Below, one piece after another: positions 12,156 through 21,037 of a stretch of 64,000 nt of DNA. The notes beneath the pieces are model-generated. The model searched no databases, was not told the DNA's origin, and was given only the letters and a program-made list of their open reading frames with translations. Source of the DNA: Alienimonas californiensis (GTDB lineage: Bacteria; Planctomycetota; Planctomycetia; Planctomycetales; Planctomycetaceae); NCBI RefSeq assembly GCF_007743815.1, contig NZ_CP036265.1:3428823-3492822 (forward strand), given 5' to 3'. Every line of letters begins with the position of its first letter. Within the stretch, counting starts at the first letter, position 1. The position numbers and the translations under genes were made by a program.

Positions 12156-12357
12156 CTTCCGTCCTCGTCCACTGGGGTCGACAGCACGTTATACCAGCTC
12201 CCTCTGCGGCATGTCCCTTCGCTCGTAACCCTGCGGTGACGGGAGCTGGGTCGGCGGGGAGGAGGGGTTTCTGCCGAGTCCTAAGGAAAAGATCCCGCCC
12301 CGCCCGAACCCGGGCGGAACGGGACCGTGGGGCATGGAATCAGAGTCAGCTTCCGGC

Positions 12358-12440
12358 CCGCTCCTTCAGCCCGTCGATCGTCTCGCTCGCCTCCCCTCGG
12401 GACAGCTCCTCCGCGATCGACAGCGCGAACCGCCGCAGCC
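12358..12440 (-). repeat. Degenerate copy of the tail of the 14941-15429 gene
   Basis: The plus-strand text CTCCTTCAGCCCGTCGATCG followed by CTCGCTCGCCT and GACAGCTCCTCCGC matches 14954-15012 in the same order with scattered substitutions. As in the intact copy, it is preceded by the CCGCCCGAACC hairpin about 60 bp before. It corresponds to the last 25 or so codons of that gene (the ELSRRQASEAIDRLKERV region). Confidence 0.6.
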
Positions 12441-12807
12441 CTTTGTCGCGTGGCCGACGCCGTTCGACCCACCCGGTGCGGGGCGGACGGAATCGCTCGG
12501 GCGTCGCTGGCGTGGATCGCGGAGCGGATCGGCCAGAGCCCCGGAACCGTGCACATGGGCCCTCGAGCAGTCAATCGCCGCCGGACTCAACGAGCGGGTG
12601 CGGCAGGGCCGGGGCGGGCCCGGCCGCAACGCGGAGGTCGCCCGCGTCCCCCTGGGCGACCGGAAGCCGGCTTCCGGTCGCGACCGAAAGAATCCGTCCG
12701 TTGTCGAGGAAGCCCGCTTCCTCCTTTCCATAATTATGGACGGGGCCGCCGCCTCCGGCGGGCGCCCCGCCGGCAATTCTTTGACGAACTAGACAGACAT
12801 CTGTCCG

Positions 12808-14940: not shown

Positions 14941-15429
14941 TCACTGTTCAACACGCTCCTTCAGCCGGTCGATCGCCTCGCTCGCCTGCCGGCGGCTCAG
15001 TTCCTCCGCCGTTGTGAGGCCGAACCGCCGCCGGAGTTCCTCCGTCAACTCTACGCCCGCCTTGCGGCTGAAGGCGTGCAACGCCCGCACCTGCTTCTCG
15101 GTGCAGGGCAATGACCCACGGCCGTTCGTCATCGAGCCGTTGGTCGTAGACCCGTTGCGGGCCGAGCTGCCGTTGCTTCCGCGTGGACCGTTCACCGGCC
15201 GCCAGCGTTCCTCCTGCGAGTCATCGCCGCTTCCGCCGGGCTTAACGCCCAGTTCGGCGTCGACCGTTTCGCGGATCACGCCGAAGATCCCGCGGACCTG
15301 GCGCCGCAGGCGTTCGTGGTCCTTCAACAGGTCCGCGGACAGCTCGACCTCGACGTTCACCATCGCTCCCTTGGAGCCGTAGGCGGGCAGGCCCACTTTG
15401 CGGGACAAGCCCGCGTTCAACTTCAACAT
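14941..15429 (-). CDS. Conserved cassette protein, 162 residues, unknown function
   Basis: The N-terminal part (residues 1-60) reads as a beta-rich domain beginning MLKLNAGLSRKVGLPAYGSK with VNVEVELSADLL after it. A low-complexity linker of Ser, Asn and Gly follows (residues 85-110). The C-terminal 50 residues are helical (TEKQVRALHAFSRKAGVELT, then EELSRRQASEAIDRLK). I recall similar proteins next to clamp-like genes in planctomycetes, but no function is known to me. It lies 40 bp downstream of the clamp-like gene and ends the minus-strand cassette. Broken copies of its 3' end are scattered in the window (2730, 12358, 12808). Confidence 0.7.
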   Translation of the reverse strand: MLKLNAGLSRKVGLPAYGSKGAMVNVEVELSADLLKDHERLRRQVRGIFGVIRETVDAELGVKPGGSGDDSQEERWRPVNGPRGSNGSSARNGSTTNGSMTNGRGSLPCTEKQVRALHAFSRKAGVELTEELRRRFGLTTAEELSRRQASEAIDRLKERVEQ

Positions 15430-15469
15430 CGATTCGCTCCGTTCGGGATGTGGATGAAGGAGCGGCCGG

Positions 15470-16972
15470 CTACGCGGTGAGCGAGCCCAGCCGCTTGAGA
15501 CTGCCGAGGGCGCTGGAGACCAGCCGGTCCCGCCGCTTCAGCCTGCGGAGGTCCGCGGCCAGCCCCTTCGCCTCCGCGGCGGCGTCGGCCAGCGTCGCCT
15601 GCAGGGCGGTCGCCCGGTCCAGCAAGGCCTCGGGATCGGCGGCGGCGTGGCCGTTGGCGGCGTGGCCGTTGGCGGCGTGACCGTTGGCGGCGTGGCCGTT
15701 GGTCGCGGTGGGCTCGGCGGGGGAGCCGTTCAGGCGGTTCGCGGGCATCTGCGTGGCAGGGCGTTTCATGGGGGTGACAGTTGTCGCGGGGACGGCGGAC
15801 GCCGGACCCTCCGCGGTCAGCCGCACGGCTCCGTCCGCGGGCACGGGATCCCCGGCCAGCGTGGCGAAGACCACCGTGGTTCCGGGCTGGCCATCGCCGG
15901 CGGGGGCGTCACAGCGGACCGGTTCCTCCGGCCCGTTCAGCACCCACTGCGTGCAGCCGGCGGACAGGGCTCGAGCGACGAACCGACGATCCGCCACGCA
16001 GATTGCGGCGCCGCGGACGTCGGAATCGGCCGTCGTCAGTTCCACCGGGGCACCGCCCTCCTCGGCGGCCCGGATCAGCAACGTGTCGTCGGCGATCTCG
16101 AGCGTGACCGAGCGCCGGTCGGCGCCGGCGCCCGGCAGGCGGTCCAGCCGATCGGCGAGGAACGCCGCGTCGGCCGCGGACAGCATCACGCTCGCCTTGC
16201 CCTCGCCGCCGGGCACGACGCGGTCCAGGTCCGGGAACCGGGCGTCGCGGGCCTCGGGCGACCAGATTGACCAGTCACCGCATTGCAGCACGGCCAGCCC
16301 CGCAGACTTCCCGCCGGGCAGGAACGCGACCAGCGCCTCCTCGCCCCGCAGCGAGGCCGTGGAGAGCACGTGCGGGGCCGGCAGCAGAATCGGCTTGTCG
16401 AAGCTGAACGTGAAGCCGCGGGCGATCAGCAGGTGATGACTGTCGGTTGCCTCGATCCGGCCGGCGTGCGGGTCGAGGCGGACGCAGCCTAGGGCGTAGC
16501 GGGTCGACTCGGCGTCCGTCACCTCGCAGGCGGGCCGCAGCGCCGCGGCGAAGCCGGGACCCGGGTCGTGATACTCCTCCACGGCCGGCGGAGCGAAGCT
16601 CGCGGCCCGATCCCGAGCCTGCTTTTCCAGGGCGCCGCGGACGCTGCGGGGCACGCCCTTCTCGTCCCAGTTGGCGACCACGGCATCGCCGTCAGCCTCA
16701 GACAAGTGCACGTCGCCGCCCTTCGCTGCGCCGGCGTCGGCCAGCAGGGCGTACGGCAGGACCAGCCCGGCGGGCGGGCGATCGCCGGGGAGCAGCAGGC
16801 TGACACCACGACCGTCGGGGCCGACGGCGGTGAGGCGGGTTCCGCCTTCGGCGTCGGCGTCGGCGTCGATGCGAACCGGTGGGCCTTGGTCGCGGGCCTT
16901 CAGCCCGAGGTGTTTCTTGGCCACCGTGCGGAAGCGGTGCAGCGTCCGCCGGGGCAGGATGATCGGAGGCAT
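15470..16972 (-). CDS. Beta-sliding-clamp-like (DnaN-fold) protein
   Basis: 500 residues. The middle shows clamp-like landmarks: ESTRYALGCVRLDP followed by RIEATDSHHLL at about residues 153-185, matching the domain-2 pattern 'RyaLnGV...ATDgHRL' of DnaN, and FPDLDRVVPG near residue 247, matching 'PDyrrVIP'. The third segment (RSVTLEIADDTLLIRAAEEG) also reads like a clamp strand pattern. It is too divergent and too long to be the housekeeping clamp (about 370 residues). Residues 385-430 form a low-complexity linker with four ATNGHA-type repeats, and the last 65 residues form an Ala/Leu-rich coiled coil ending in a basic patch (RRLKRRDRL). It may be a repurposed clamp that tethers a partner to DNA, which is inference. 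Confidence 0.65.
   Translation of the reverse strand: MPPIILPRRTLHRFRTVAKKHLGLKARDQGPPVRIDADADAEGGTRLTAVGPDGRGVSLLLPGDRPPAGLVLPYALLADAGAAKGGDVHLSEADGDAVVANWDEKGVPRSVRGALEKQARDRAASFAPPAVEEYHDPGPGFAAALRPACEVTDAESTRYALGCVRLDPHAGRIEATDSHHLLIARGFTFSFDKPILLPAPHVLSTASLRGEEALVAFLPGGKSAGLAVLQCGDWSIWSPEARDARFPDLDRVVPGGEGKASVMLSAADAAFLADRLDRLPGAGADRRSVTLEIADDTLLIRAAEEGGAPVELTTADSDVRGAAICVADRRFVARALSAGCTQWVLNGPEEPVRCDAPAGDGQPGTTVVFATLAGDPVPADGAVRLTAEGPASAVPATTVTPMKRPATQMPANRLNGSPAEPTATNGHAANGHAANGHAANGHAAADPEALLDRATALQATLADAAAEAKGLAADLRRLKRRDRLVSSALGSLKRLGSLTA
15641..15700 (-). repeat. Four 15-bp tandem repeats inside the clamp-like gene
   Basis: Four units of GGCGGCGTGGCCGTT (one with A for G), in frame, encoding four Asn-Gly-His-Ala-Ala units on the minus strand. 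The array sits in the linker between the clamp-like part and the C-terminal coiled coil, so copy number would change linker length only. Confidence 0.9.
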
Positions 16973-17064
16973 GGGGCGGCCCTTCGTGTTCAGGATGAAT
17001 GGGGTGAGAGAAAAGGCCGGCGACGGGGTTTAGCCCGCCGCCGGTCGTGGGCGTCGCGGCCGAT

Positions 17065-17271
17065 TCAGTGGAAGGTGACGCGGCCTTTGCCGCAGCGGGT
17101 CAGATCGCTGCGACGACTGGCCTGCTCGGCGTCCCAGTCGATGGGACCGAGGTCGTCGTCGTAGTGGGTGAACGACGGCGGGCCGTCGATCTGGAAGCCC
17201 AGCCGGGCGATGGCGCCGACGCTCTCGCCGGTGGCGGCGGCGATGCGGCGGTTCAGTTCGTGCTGGGGCAT
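17065..17271 (-). CDS. Small conserved cassette protein, 68 residues
   Basis: Begins MPQHELNRRIAAATGESVGA and continues with a short Asp-rich segment (HYDDDLGPIDWDAEQASRR). The start resembles small proteins I recall in planctomycetal accessory regions, whose first 25 residues look like a DNA-binding or adaptor helix pair; I have no function for it. AGGAGC sits upstream of the ATG at 17271. It lies 92 bp before the clamp-like gene on the same strand. Confidence 0.6.
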   Translation of the reverse strand: MPQHELNRRIAAATGESVGAIARLGFQIDGPPSFTHYDDDLGPIDWDAEQASRRSDLTRCGKGRVTFH

Positions 17272-17479
17272 GGGAAGCTCCTGTTCGTGCAGTGGGAGGG
17301 GGAAAAGAGAAAGCGGCGAACGGGCGCTGGGCCGGTCCGCCGCTTCGGGGGGAGGTGGAAGCGAAACCCCGTTGGGGCGTGGGTCAGCCCGTGGGGGCAT
17401 GGGTCAGCCTGTCGGGGCGCGGGTCGCCCGAACCCGCCGCTTCCGGGGGGAGGCGGCGGGCGTCGTCGCCGCCGGGCGC

Positions 17480-17740
17480 TCAGCCGGGCGGCGTGAGCCG
17501 GTTGCGGACGAGCCAGTCGGCTTCCGCGGCCAAGGCCTCGCTCCGCAGCGGGAACGGCCCGAGGACGGGACCGCCGCTGGGGGAGAGGTCGGCCGTCCAT
17601 CCGCCGCCGTCGGCGGGCTCGATATGGCTGGCCCGGATGGTGGAGGCGGCGCCGATCGCGCCGGCGTCGATCAGTTCGCCGTAGAGGCCTTTCGCCGTGC
17701 CGTCCGGCGAGACGAACAGTTCCTGGACGGCGCCGCTCAT
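17480..17740 (-). CDS. Small conserved cassette protein, 86 residues
   Basis: Begins MSGAVQELFVSPDGTAKGLY, with ASHIEPADGGGWTADLSP in the middle and GPFPLRSEALAAEADWL near the end. It is a compact beta-rich protein without Cys and without membrane segment, similar to hypothetical proteins I recall in planctomycetal mobile regions. Its start overlaps the end of the preceding open frame by four bases (ATGA), supporting both the start and co-translation. Confidence 0.65.
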   Translation of the reverse strand: MSGAVQELFVSPDGTAKGLYGELIDAGAIGAASTIRASHIEPADGGGWTADLSPSGGPVLGPFPLRSEALAAEADWLVRNRLTPPG

Positions 17741-18054
17741 CGGGGCGACCGCAGCACCCGGCGGCGGGGGGCGTCGGTCAGCAGCGGGTCGAGGGCCTCG
17801 GCCACGCCGGTCAGTCCCTCGCAGACGCGGTCCTGCAGCCAGCCGACGCCGGTGCTGGCCCGCAGGTCCGCGGGGTCCACGCCCCGCATCAGGCCCTTGG
17901 CCTCGGCGACGACGGCGTCCAGCTCCTCGTTGCCGCCGACGTTCAGGCGACGGAACCTCTGGAAGAACTCCGTGAGGTTCTCCACGGCGGAGTCCCGGAA
18001 CACCCGGGGACCGCCGTTCTCGCTGCCGGACAGCCGTTCGCGGAGGTGTTCGAC
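17737..18054 (-). pseudogene. Cassette gene cut at its 5' side by the insertion sequence
   Basis: The frame is open from the insertion-sequence edge (18054) to 17737. It reads VEHLRERLSGSENGGPRVFR, then DSAVENLTEFFQRFRRLNVG and a helical C-terminus ending in a basic PRRRVLRSPR. There is no ATG; the only start left is a GTG at 18003, which would drop conserved-looking residues. The protein is alpha-helical and soluble. It may be the C-terminus of the same AAA-like protein whose N-terminal piece lies beyond the insertion, or a separate gene that lost its start. It overlaps the 86-residue gene by four bases and may still be translated from the GTG. Confidence 0.55.
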
Positions 18055-18133
18055 TAGAGCAAACCCAGGTGTGGCGTAGCGGATGGGGCGACGGCAAAAT
18101 GCCGGCGTCCATCCCGCTCACGGAGTCGAGTCG

Positions 18134-19074
18134 GTGCGTGCGTATTCGGAGGATCTGAGAGAACGCGTGCTGACCGCCCGCGACGCCGGCGAGCCGACGA
18201 GGGTCGTGGCCGACCGTTTCGCCGTCAGTCCCGCCTGGGTGCGGCGGCTGGTCCAGCGGCGGCGGGAGAGCGGCACGGACGAGGTCCCCGCCGCCCGGAC
18301 CGCGCCGGGACGGACGCGGGCGCTGGCGGGCCGGGAGGCGGAGATCGTCGCCGCGATGAACGCCGAGACCGATCGCACCGTGCGGCAGCTGAAGGCCGAT
18401 CTGAAGCTGAATTGCTCGGCGGAGACGCTGCGACGAGAACTCCGCCGGCTCGGTTTCCGCTATAAAAAAAGACGCTGATCGCCTGCGAGCAAACCCGCCC
18501 CGACGTCGCCGACGCCCGGAGGCGTTGGCGGCGGGCCCGCGGCGGCTTCCGGGCCGGGCGGCTGGTCTTTCTGGACGAGACGTGGGCCAAGACGAACATG
18601 ACCCCGACCCGGGGGTGGGCGCCGCGGGGACGCCGGCTGCTGGCGTCCGTGCCGCACGGCCACTGGCGCACCACGACGTTTTTATGCGGGTTGCGGGCCG
18701 ACGGCCCGGTCGCCCCGTTGGTCGTCGACGGGGCGATCGACGGGCCGCTGTTTCTGGCGTGGGTCCGGCAACATCTGGCGCCGATTCTGCGCCGCGGCGA
18801 CGTGGTGGTGATGGACAACCTCGCCGCCCACAAGGTGGCGGGCGTGGCGGAGGCGATCCGGGCCGTCGGTGCGAAGGCGCGGTACCTGCCGCCGTACAGC
18901 CCCGACCTGAACCCGATCGAACTGCTGTTCAGCAAGCTCAAGCGTCTGATCCGGGCCGCGGGCGAGCGGACGGTCGAGGGGCTGTGGCGCCGCATCGGCG
19001 AACTGCTCGACCGCTTCCCGCCGTCCGAGTGCCGGAACTATCTCCGCCACTGCGGCTATACACGCTACGCCTGA
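18134..19074 (+). CDS. IS630-family transposase, two frames joined by -1 frameshift
   Basis: Frame 1 (GTG at 18134, or ATG at 18083, to the TGA at 18476-18478) holds the N-terminal helix-turn-helix region, starting RAYSEDLRERVLTARDAGEP. Frame 2 continues from the A7 run as KKTLIACEQTRPDVADARRR and carries the DDE catalytic residues: Asp in LVFLDETWAK, Asp in VVVMDNLAAH, and Glu in SPDLNPIELLFSKLK. The A7 stretch at 18464-18470 lies at the end of frame 1 and a -1 slip gives an uninterrupted protein of about 313 residues, the normal size. Programmed -1 frameshifting at A-rich runs is known in this family, so the element may be active. Confidence 0.88.
18464..18471 (+). promoter_or_regulatory. 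Slippery A7 frameshift site
   Basis: TAT AAA AAA AGA CGC TGA in frame 0 becomes AAA AAA AAG ACG CTG after a -1 slip. The stop of frame 0 is only five bases beyond the run, and protein similarity carries on without a gap in the -1 frame. Confidence 0.75.
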
Positions 19075-19086
19075 TCGCGGACTGCT

Positions 19087-19350
19087 CTAGGCGGCCAGCG
19101 CCCAGCCCCGCCGGCGGCAGAGGCCGGCGAGGTCCCGGAGGACCTCCCTCGGCTCCGGGCTGACCGCCAGCACGCCGGGGTAGGCGGCGGCGACCAGCTC
19201 CTCCAGCCGGTTAACGAAATTGGCGGGCGGACTGGCAGGGGCCGCCGGTCGACGCACCGATGCACTCGCCGGAGCTTTCTCGGGGCTGGGACTTGGTACG
19301 CCCCCGGCCGGACGTGGTTCCCGACCGGCGGGACGACCTGCGGGGGCCAA
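19087..19350 (-). pseudogene. N-terminal fragment of an AAA (Ycf46-like) gene
   Basis: The recognisable part is the last 45 codons: NFVNRLEELVAAAYPGVLAV, then SPEPREVLRDLAGLCRRRGW. This resembles the N-terminal domain of Ycf46-type AAA ATPases (pattern 'LxxLvrarYPgvxVxSpEexRvxxxL'). The fragment ends with TAG made at the insertion-sequence edge, before any Walker A motif. A strong ribosome binding site (AAAGGAGG) and ATG at 19429 lie upstream but in a different frame, so the front of the gene also seems frameshifted. Its position behind DUF2997 and DUF1257 genes fits, since these families are often neighbours of Ycf46-like ATPases. The family assignment is moderate. Confidence 0.45.
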
Positions 19351-19488
19351 AGTTCAGCCGGTCGGTGCGTCGACTGCGTCGCTGCGACGCCCGCCGTGGT
19401 CGCCCGCGGGGGCTTCGAGAGTGCGGCATCGGCGCCTCCTTTCTGAGGGGTTAGCGTTGTGAAGGAATTCATTGCCGACCGGCAGGCG

Positions 19489-19683
19489 TCAGGCCCGATG
19501 CTCGGCGGGCTGGGCGACCTGCTCGGCTGCGTGATACTCCGGCGTCAGCCGCTCGGCGCTCTTGCTGCCGAGGACCTCCTCATACGGCTTCGACGCCGCC
19601 TTGCAGACCGTGCCGGCGAAGCCCTTGGTCTCGACGCTGGTCTCGCCCTCGGGCGTGACGGTGACCTCGATGTGGGGGTTCAT
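19489..19683 (-). CDS. DUF2997 protein
   Basis: 64 residues. It starts MNPHIEVTVTPEGETSVETK and continues GFAGTVCKAASKPYEEVLGS, the conserved pattern of DUF2997: a short beta-hairpin, a Gly-Phe-x-Gly turn with a single Cys, and an amphipathic helix. No signal peptide. Its start overlaps the DUF1257 stop by four bases (ATGA). DUF2997 is found beside DUF1257 in cyanobacteria and other bacteria; function is unknown. Confidence 0.8.
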   Translation of the reverse strand: MNPHIEVTVTPEGETSVETKGFAGTVCKAASKPYEEVLGSKSAERLTPEYHAAEQVAQPAEHRA

Positions 19684-20087
19684 CAGGCGAGTCCCCCGTA
19701 CGCGTTGCCGGTCGTGCCGAAGCCGGCGGTGCCGGCGGTGACGGTCAGCCGCACGCCGCCGTCGGGCAGCGAGGTCTCGCTGATCCGGTGGCCGCGGGCT
19801 TTGGCCTGCAGCTTGGCGGCTTCCAGGGCGTAGGCCTGCTTCAGGCGGCCGAGGAAGGCGTTGTCGCCCCAGCGGCCCTCGTCGGTGTCGCAGCGGACAG
19901 CGCCTTCTTCTCCGATCAGCACGGGGTACACGAACCCTGGCGGTCGCACCGCGAGGCCGCTTTGTTCGGCGCCGTCGAAGAACTTGACGGTTTCGGTTCG
20001 CGGCTCGGGCAGGCCGAGCCGCTCGCAGGCGGCGGACAACGCCGCCGGGTCTCTCAGCTTCGTCTCGATGGTGACGACGTGGCTCAC
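19683..20087 (-). CDS. DUF1257 (Ycf35-like) protein
   Basis: 134 residues from a GTG at 20087, chosen because AGGAGG lies eight bases upstream and the family starts MSH. Conserved landmarks: RDPAALSAACERLGLP, then a Gly-Leu-Ala-Val strand (SGLAVRPPGFVYPV), the DTDEGRWGD motif near residue 76, and YALEAAKLQAKARGH near residue 95, all as in chloroplast and cyanobacterial Ycf35. It is the first clear gene of the minus-strand cassette. The biochemical function of the family is unknown. Confidence 0.88.
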   Translation of the reverse strand: MSHVVTIETKLRDPAALSAACERLGLPEPRTETVKFFDGAEQSGLAVRPPGFVYPVLIGEEGAVRCDTDEGRWGDNAFLGRLKQAYALEAAKLQAKARGHRISETSLPDGGVRLTVTAGTAGFGTTGNAYGGLA

Positions 20088-20769
20088 GGGCGGAGCCTCC
20101 TTTCGATCGGGGGACAACGGGGAAAAGGGACTGCCCGCGGCGACCCGGTCGGGGCCGGCGGGGCGGGGCGAGCGGCCGTAGCGGCCGGCGACGGACCGCC
20201 GGCGGCAGGGCCGGGACGGTCAGGCCGGCGGGGAGCCGGGACCGCGGGCGCCGGGACGGCCGCACGGACGGGCGTGCGGGGGGACGTCCGGCCGGAGGCG
20301 CCGGCGCCCGGGGTCGGGACGGAGCGACCGGCGAGGGCCGGGGGGGCGGCCGATCCGACGGCGACCGGACGGTCCAGGCCGCGGCCGCGGAGGCCGCCGC
20401 CGCGACCGCGGTCAGGGCCGCGACGGCGGCGAGGCCGTCGGGCCACGGCCCGGCCGCCCACGACGGCAGGGCCGCGGGCGCCGGCGGGAGGGGCATGGGC
20501 GACGCTCCATTCGTGATGGGCCGGCGAGATAACGCCGGCGGGTCGCCGCACAGTGCCGCAGGATCAGTCGCCGTTTAGGAACGCCGGCAGAAAACGTGAT
20601 CCCGCGGCTCCGCTACGAGGGTCGGGAACAGGTCGTTCACGCAGGGGCCTGAAGTAGAGCGGGCTAGGCGAAGGCGAGCGACTGGACTGTCAGGGGTGTC
20701 AGGGGCAGTCGAGAGGTCGCTGCGGGCGGCGGGTCGGGCATGGGGTCTTCCGACTGCGAAGAGGGACCG
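20088..20769. other. Region upstream of the cassette, one doubtful frame
   Basis: A minus-strand frame from an ATG at 20496 (GGAG upstream) starts with a hydrophobic Ala-rich stretch (AAVAALTAVAAAASAAAAWT) and a Pro/Arg-rich tail. It has no stop before it runs through the DUF1257 gene in another frame, so I do not call it a gene. The promoter of the cassette should lie here. A solitary MITE-type end sits at 20688-20705. Confidence 0.35.
20688..20705. repeat. Solitary MITE-type end (TGTCAGGGG tandem)
   Basis: TGTCAGGGGTGTCAGGGG, identical to the left end of the element at 3043. No inverted partner is found within 200 bp, so it is a lone end or the remains of a rearranged copy. Confidence 0.55.
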
Positions 20770-21037
20770 GCGGGTGTTCCGCGGCGTCGCACCGCAGTGC
20801 GACATCGCGTTGTCGAAGCTGCCTCACTGGCTGTGCGACAACGGGCTGTGGTCGCTGAACGACGACCTGACCGTGCTGATCGCGAACGATCGGCACTTTC
20901 GGGAGGCGGCTCCGGACCAGCGGGCGTTGGCGGATTACGCCGGGCTGCGGGTCCGCCTGCCGAACGTCGAGGCACACTGGCCGGACCCGAACTGCCTGCG
21001 GTGGCACCGCAGGAAGGTGTTTCTCGGAGAGAGATAG
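20770..21037 (+). pseudogene. C-terminal fragment of an HNH-endonuclease-like protein (copy 1)
   Basis: The last 75 codons up to the TAG at 21035-21037 read LPHWLCDNGLWSLNDDLTVL, then REAAPDQRALADYAGLRVRL and DPNCLRWHRRKVFLGER. This 'L..p......P....L.WHr..vF' ending is how I recall the C-terminus of planctomycetal HNH restriction-type endonucleases. The catalytic HNH part is missing. A closely similar fragment lies at 36015-36283. The family call is from pattern memory and is moderate. Confidence 0.5.

Follow-up and report, generated by a model that had tools for sequence, protein, structure and literature searches.

We analysed a window of 64,000 nt from the genome of Alienimonas californiensis (5.48 Mb, a single contig; the close relative is Alienimonas chondri). 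All coordinates are positions in this window unless a locus is named, and the loci and genomes of the wider comparison are labelled L### and G###, respectively. On the minus strand, from 20087 down to 14941, the window has one copy of a gene cassette in the order D1257-D2997-AAA-HEL-P86-P68-CLAMP-P162 (Table 1), in which relatives of the DUF1257 and DUF2997 families and the remnant of a Cdc48-like ATPase stand beside a paralogue of the sliding clamp DnaN. An earlier reading of this stretch, made from its letters only (the sequence-only reading), had listed eight minus-strand genes or fragments, and all of them are present where it placed them. The ATGA overlaps described there hold for HEL/P86 (ATGA) and, in the form TGATG, for D1257/D2997, but the remaining genes are spaced. 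An Rfam search of the cassette region gave no match.

Table 1. Features of the cassette copy in the window and of its immediate surroundings
Feature	Position	Strand	Description	Basis
D1257	19686..20087	-	DUF1257-related protein, 134 aa, GTG start	Sub-threshold PF06868; profile and synteny in 37+ loci
D2997	19489..19683	-	DUF2997 protein, 64 aa	PF11211, 6.4e-13
AAA remnant	19090..19221	-	N-terminal ~45 conserved residues of a Cdc48-like/Ycf46-like ATPase	tblastn/hidden Markov model comparison with intact paralogues
IS630-type element	~18057..19087	+	Two-frame DDE transposase	PF13358 (DDE_3), 3.3e-26
HEL remnant	17740..18056	-	C-terminal ~105 residues of a DUF3150-related helical protein	Comparison with intact paralogues
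P86	17480..17740	-	Small conserved protein, 86 aa	30+ loci
P68	17065..17271	-	Small conserved protein, 68 aa	30 loci
CLAMP	15470..16972	-	DnaN paralogue, 500 aa	Profile, AF2, Foldseek
P162	14941..15429	-	162 aa, two conserved domains	Alignment of 14 homologues; weak DUF3072
Leader open reading frame (ORF)	20087..20496	-	Small single-transmembrane (TM), Pro/Arg-rich protein upstream of D1257	Common to L034, L035, L037, L039

The cassette is not confined to this site. Six other copies, all of them intact (L033–L038), lie elsewhere in the A. californiensis genome, A. chondri has at least three (L001/L041, L039 and L040), and other planctomycete genomes have up to nine D1257 matches. We observed that the core order D1257-D2997-AAA-HEL-P86-P68 was the same in 41 of the 42 planctomycete loci, the exception being one locus with no P68 match. 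The genes co-occur far beyond chance, in the same order at six other sites of the genome, in the sister species and in planctomycetes at large. In blastn comparisons between the copies, the shared unit in Alienimonas is ~6.6 kb long and extends from ~470 bp upstream of D1257 to just past P162. No transposase or integrase was seen to recur at the borders of the seven copies in the genome when one was looked for; the shared unit is the cassette itself. The ratio of nonsynonymous to synonymous substitution rates (dN/dS) between the compared paralogues was ~0.2–0.7, mostly 0.2–0.4, and these paralogues are under purifying selection.

Among the core proteins, D2997, which had already been recognised as a DUF2997 protein, matched PF11211 at 48.8 bits against a gathering cut-off of 24.1. 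D1257 had been called a Ycf35-like DUF1257 protein. Its match to PF06868 stayed below the cut-off (14–16.6 bits, gathering cut-off 22.2; E = 0.03, and 0.0094 for a relative) and a PF06868 search of the host genome returned no match, whereas the profile of the D1257 family recovers annotated DUF1257 proteins elsewhere. By profile and synteny, D1257 is related to DUF1257/Ycf35, and we do not file it as a member of that family. The AAA protein was assessed on the intact paralogue of L034, which matched PF00004 (1.8e-24) and has the Walker A and B motifs. It has a single AAA domain with an N-terminal region of its own, its matches in NCBIfam were generic AAA-domain models only, and the best matches of its AAA domain in the PDB were VCP/Cdc48 (3.4e-34). 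A clamp-loader reading of AAA was ruled out, because the nearest solved relatives are Cdc48/p97. HEL itself gave no match to PF11348 (DUF3150); a homologue at the syntenic position in Manganitrophus matches this family (1.9e-9) and aligns to HEL at 98.5% probability. Judged from this alignment, HEL is DUF3150-related. A fold search with HEL yielded no solved relative at E <0.001, and the solved relatives sought for P162 and D1257 included none that was convincing. P162 consists of an N-terminal SRK-G..GS-GA domain and a C-terminal 'T..QVRALHA' helical domain, both of them conserved. The C-terminal domain also occurs alone, as separate ORFs downstream of some cassettes (12349–12570 in the window, 3021–3845 in L034 and 3123–3329 in L035).

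The product of the CLAMP gene, for which a DnaN fold had been proposed, models as a complete beta clamp. In the AF2 model (mean pLDDT 81), a three-domain clamp fold occupies residues 1 to ~390 and is followed by a disordered linker (391–443) and a helix (447–499). Foldseek aligned this model over ~390 residues with an E-value of 2.6e-19 and a target TM of ~0.7, and the best 50 matches were all beta clamps. When planctomycete genomes were searched with a profile built from 19 CLAMP members, their one chromosomal DnaN was recovered in most of them, and the profile also matched solved beta clamps in the PDB (7rzm at 1.7e-6). The peptide pocket was mapped by aligning the CLAMP members to E. coli DnaN and eight planctomycete DnaN proteins, with the residue numbers of the E. 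coli pocket. The domain-2 half of the pocket (R152, L155, T172, L177, F241 and P242) is kept in nearly all members, and so are V360, R24 and Y153. The profile matches to DnaN, the modelled clamp fold and the retained pocket residues together indicate that CLAMP is a true DnaN paralogue and no chance likeness; it may form a ring and bind peptides. It has in common with the bacterial beta clamp the three-domain fold, the domain-2 pocket residues and some DNA-side residues, and its sequence is closest to planctomycete DnaN ('TD.ESTRYALGG' against 'TDAESTRYALGC'). Unlike DnaN, it is encoded in accessory cassettes, by genes additional to the one chromosomal dnaN, some of its pocket residues are changed, and the MP[ML]R tail is replaced, with the linker and the C-terminal helix added.

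Of the 20 strong clamp matches in a sample of 392 genomes of the phylum, 16 were located within ~5 kb of a D1257 gene, and the remaining four were on contigs that have no D1257 gene; since only a small number of candidates was scored in each genome, these are minimum figures. The set P68-CLAMP-P162-PD-(D/E)XK was also found without the AAA core (L094, L095), and one genome has divergent lone clamps (L091–L093). One of the latter, in L091 (234–1481), adjoins a DUF2201 metallopeptidase/vWA-like gene, a context which suggests that clamps have been recruited to another AAA-type system too.

The sequence-only reading had joined the clamp to the DUF1257, DUF2997 and AAA genes. The clamp is indeed co-located with them, but as an exchangeable module. 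Neither of the outcomes named in that reading as refuting it, a lack of co-location or a fold other than that of a clamp, was seen. On the 3' side of P68, the cassettes have CLAMP, often joined by P162 and sometimes by a PF12705 PD-(D/E)XK nuclease, or a ubiquitin-like (Ubl) block, or neither. The Ubl block is made up of a ThiS-like Ubl protein, an E2-like protein and a ThiF/E1-like protein, and it stands in the clamp's place, beside the Cdc48-like AAA, in L044, L048, L062, L068, L106, L107, L109–L114, L117 and L146. The E1-like protein matches ThiF (PF00899, 3e-26). An HPH...C motif is invariant in the E2-like proteins, whose tail is Cys-rich; they were so labelled from the motif reading and the operon position, with no Pfam match. 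We counted 26–27 clamp loci, 13 Ubl loci and none with both (P ~8e-6 if the loci are independent, kinship ignored). Both module types occur at different loci within the genomes G005 and G289, and on the AAA tree there are seven clamp/Ubl switches, several of them forced by well-supported branches. That the clamp and the Ubl module do equivalent jobs for one motor is suggested most strongly by this pattern, in which the two modules exclude each other at a locus, coexist within genomes and replace each other repeatedly on the tree.

The neighbourhoods were sampled by taking the three closest genes to either side of the 42 cassettes, which gave 243 flanking proteins; the controls were 243 random proteins from 20 loci, mostly of the same genomes and not matched for islands. 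When the PADLOC models were applied to both sets, we obtained 78+335 model matches for the flanking proteins and 9+42 for the random ones. The former include many dedicated defence genes (type I restriction-modification (R-M), DrmD/DrmA, PbeA, Hma and others), whereas the latter are mainly kinases, regulators and generic ATPases. At least 10 of the 42 loci adjoin restriction-modification, DISARM, Hma, Pgl or similar genes, which was not the case for the random loci. The defence neighbours are clear in nine loci (Hma-like in L045 and L118; PglW in L055; DrmD in L058; PDC-S68 in L122; type I R-M in L047, L050, L053 and L054), and in a tenth, L035 of the A. californiensis genome, PbeA lies ~3.6 kb upstream. 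As the controls were not island-matched, the enrichment of defence genes beside the cassettes is only suggestive. The cassettes constitute a multicopy, patchily distributed accessory system, often found in defence islands.

Directly upstream of D1257, 16 other loci have a lipoprotein-like coiled-coil/TM gene (for example, 10314–10889 in L106, 8999–9673 in L108 and 4415–5026 in L146), which is possibly a ninth component; the Alienimonas counterpart at this place is a small TM protein. The leader ORF is probably part of the cassette, and a second, truncated copy of it lies near 20624–20801. An ORF upstream of the cassette, 20696–21034 (+), resembles by eye the C-terminal part of an HNH endonuclease and is probably a remnant. 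In L052, L060, L061, L071, L109–L112, L119 and L123, a TOPRIM-like protein ('VEG.HD.EFLRR') is inserted near D2997 and AAA.

The copy in the window is a damaged one. Between its AAA and HEL pieces lies an insertion sequence (IS) of the IS630 type, which the sequence-only reading did not mention. The transposase is encoded in two frames (18083–18478 and 18598–19074) with a poly-A stretch between them, likely a programmed frameshift; the ends of the element match as terminal inverted repeats at 18/25 positions, with TA on the flanks. There are four copies of it in the genome (window, C1:2860534, 485462 and 268413), and two of the others are 100% identical. Homology to the intact paralogues ends at or near the edges of the element and ~2.1 kb is missing, a loss that takes away almost the whole of AAA and two thirds of HEL. 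The AAA fragment reported earlier does exist, but as a short piece with no P-loop, and the AAA domain (PF00004) is absent from the window copy; the reported helical fragment (17740–18060) is likewise present, as the last third of the ~346-residue HEL. Both pieces are remnants with the IS630-type element between them and are not small independent genes.

Since the AAA piece has no P-loop and ~2.1 kb is missing, the window copy has lost its motor and cannot run the machine by itself; as a machine it is probably dead. The open frames of D1257, D2997, P86, P68, CLAMP and P162 are intact, with dN/dS below 1 against the paralogues, and the copy could contribute only if these surviving proteins were to act in trans for the six intact paralogues. 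We give even odds or better that the window locus no longer functions and is decaying, a reading that concerns this locus only and is compatible with any account of the intact system. The replacement of the motor and most of HEL by the element, the recent activity indicated by the two other exact IS copies and the truncated leader copy argue for it. The intact state of the six remaining genes and their dN/dS values argue against it, though too recent a loss would look alike.

What the analysis establishes for the intact system is its components and their gene order, the fold of the clamp, the swapping of modules and the genes that lie alongside. We propose with a probability of roughly 0.5 that it is a modular, Cdc48-like segregase system of the defence type, in which the clamp selects replisome-associated targets. 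A hexamer of AAA would act as the protein segregase, with the small core proteins as its cofactors, and the 3' module would pick the target. In the Ubl version, the targets would be tagged and then extracted, by analogy with the ubiquitin-Cdc48 pathway. In cassettes of the clamp type, CLAMP would encircle or mimic clamp-loaded DNA, its peptide pocket would capture replisome proteins of an invading replicon and AAA would strip them off; P162 and, where present, the nuclease may act on the exposed DNA. The earlier suggestion of a DNA-associated AAA machine for replication, repair or defence is plausible, and defence is favoured over the other roles because of the neighbours and the module swapping. 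More tentatively, and at somewhat less than even odds, the cassette may represent a new kind of immune or conflict machine, in which a Cdc48-like segregase with cofactors of the DUF1257/DUF2997/DUF3150 type has an interchangeable selector (Ubl tagging or a sliding clamp) and the clamp serves as sensor or bait for foreign replisomes.

Several observations weigh against the segregase proposal. Most loci have no recognised defence gene alongside, some clamps lie outside the D1257 cassettes, and a nuclease gene is missing from the Alienimonas cassettes, that of the window among them. On its domain-3 side, the CLAMP pocket is partly changed (P in place of S346, A or Q in place of M362). The other cassette proteins show no clamp-binding motifs (QLxLF, QxxLxF) above expectation, from which we infer an outside partner for CLAMP, such as a replisome; a QLLLY in the PD-(D/E)XK protein was considered and reads as that protein's own nuclease motif. 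The occurrence of the core in viral contigs and phages is also unexpected for a purely anti-phage role.

This occurrence would fit with a rival explanation, in which the cassette began as an accessory module for the replication or repair of mobile elements and phages and later became chromosomal, with AAA remodelling replication complexes and CLAMP as the dedicated processivity or repair clamp of the element. All or most of the core D1257-D2997-AAA-HEL-P86 is present in seven large viral contigs (L147–L153, IMG/VR, 29–197 kb) with phage-like neighbours, and AAA, DUF1257 and DUF2997 are found in Rhizobium and Aeromonas phages; in the Rhizobium phage RHph_I4, AAA-DUF1257-DUF2997 adjoins DnaB-like and PolA genes. 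Plasmids of Ca. Manganitrophus have AAA-DUF1257-DUF2997 and relatives of HEL/P86, and recombinases stand beside several cassettes. This explanation is a serious rival, which we consider less likely than the segregase proposal. A search of the viral contigs with the clamp profile found no relative, and the viral and plasmid cores examined have no CLAMP module (one weak clamp match, L153). If CLAMP were a replication clamp, its swap with the Ubl module would be difficult to account for, the planctomycete neighbours are often defence genes, and the seven genomic copies share no flanking integrase or replication gene. Less probable still is a chaperone that assembles protein complexes or inserts cofactors (Fe-S or metal), with the clamp as client or scaffold. 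It would draw on the association of Ycf46 and Ycf35 with ferredoxin, seen in the cyanobacterial DUF2997-ycf35-fed7 cluster with its adjoining ferredoxin gene (PMC4284462), and on the 4Fe-4S domain genes beside AAA in Paenarthrobacter and Treponema plasmids. However, no Fe-S or ferredoxin gene was recognised in the planctomycete cassettes, and their multicopy, patchy, defence-island distribution is unlike that of housekeeping assembly.

We also compared the cassette with known systems. It shares with the cyanobacterial and plastid Ycf46/Ycf35 (DUF1257)/DUF2997 cluster the same three families in one neighbourhood, and the AAA profile covers a plasmid-borne cyanobacterial AAA (L076) at full length. 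The planctomycete cassettes differ in that they add HEL, P86, P68 and the 3' module, have no ferredoxin and have a DUF1257 protein below the Pfam cut-off. With the ubiquitin-Cdc48/p97 pathway, the Cdc48-like AAA domain is common, and the sister variant has Ubl, E2-like and E1-like proteins in one operon, so placed that this block and the adjacent AAA are possibly a bacterial ubiquitin-Cdc48 analogue; the cassette ATPase has, however, only one AAA domain, preceded by an N-terminal region of its own, and the clamp variant seen in the window has no Ubl module. The vWA-MoxR ternary conflict systems and the prokaryotic Ubl operons 6a–6e (PMC7159879, PMC1779556) likewise have an AAA+ engine and exchangeable modules, with Ubl conjugation genes in some, whereas no vWA or MoxR was recognised in the cassettes. 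DUF1257, Ycf46 and a sliding clamp are not mentioned in PMC7159879, and PMC1779556 contains no AAA case and no planctomycete case. Our literature search, with subscription papers on prokaryotic Ubl operons outside its scope, found no account of the cassette, and it found no clamp-based defence system.

DUF1257, DUF2997, DUF3150 and the Ycf46-like ATPases, families of no known joint function, occur widely across cyanobacteria, plastids, phages and plasmids. The planctomycete cassettes unite these families in one conserved operon that is tied to defence islands. In these cassettes, one and the same motor is partnered either by a DnaN paralogue or by a Ubl conjugation module, and the function can be tested with complete cassettes of both types. 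If the proposal is true, bacteria would have an equivalent of the ubiquitin-Cdc48 pathway in which a replication clamp can serve as the adaptor instead.

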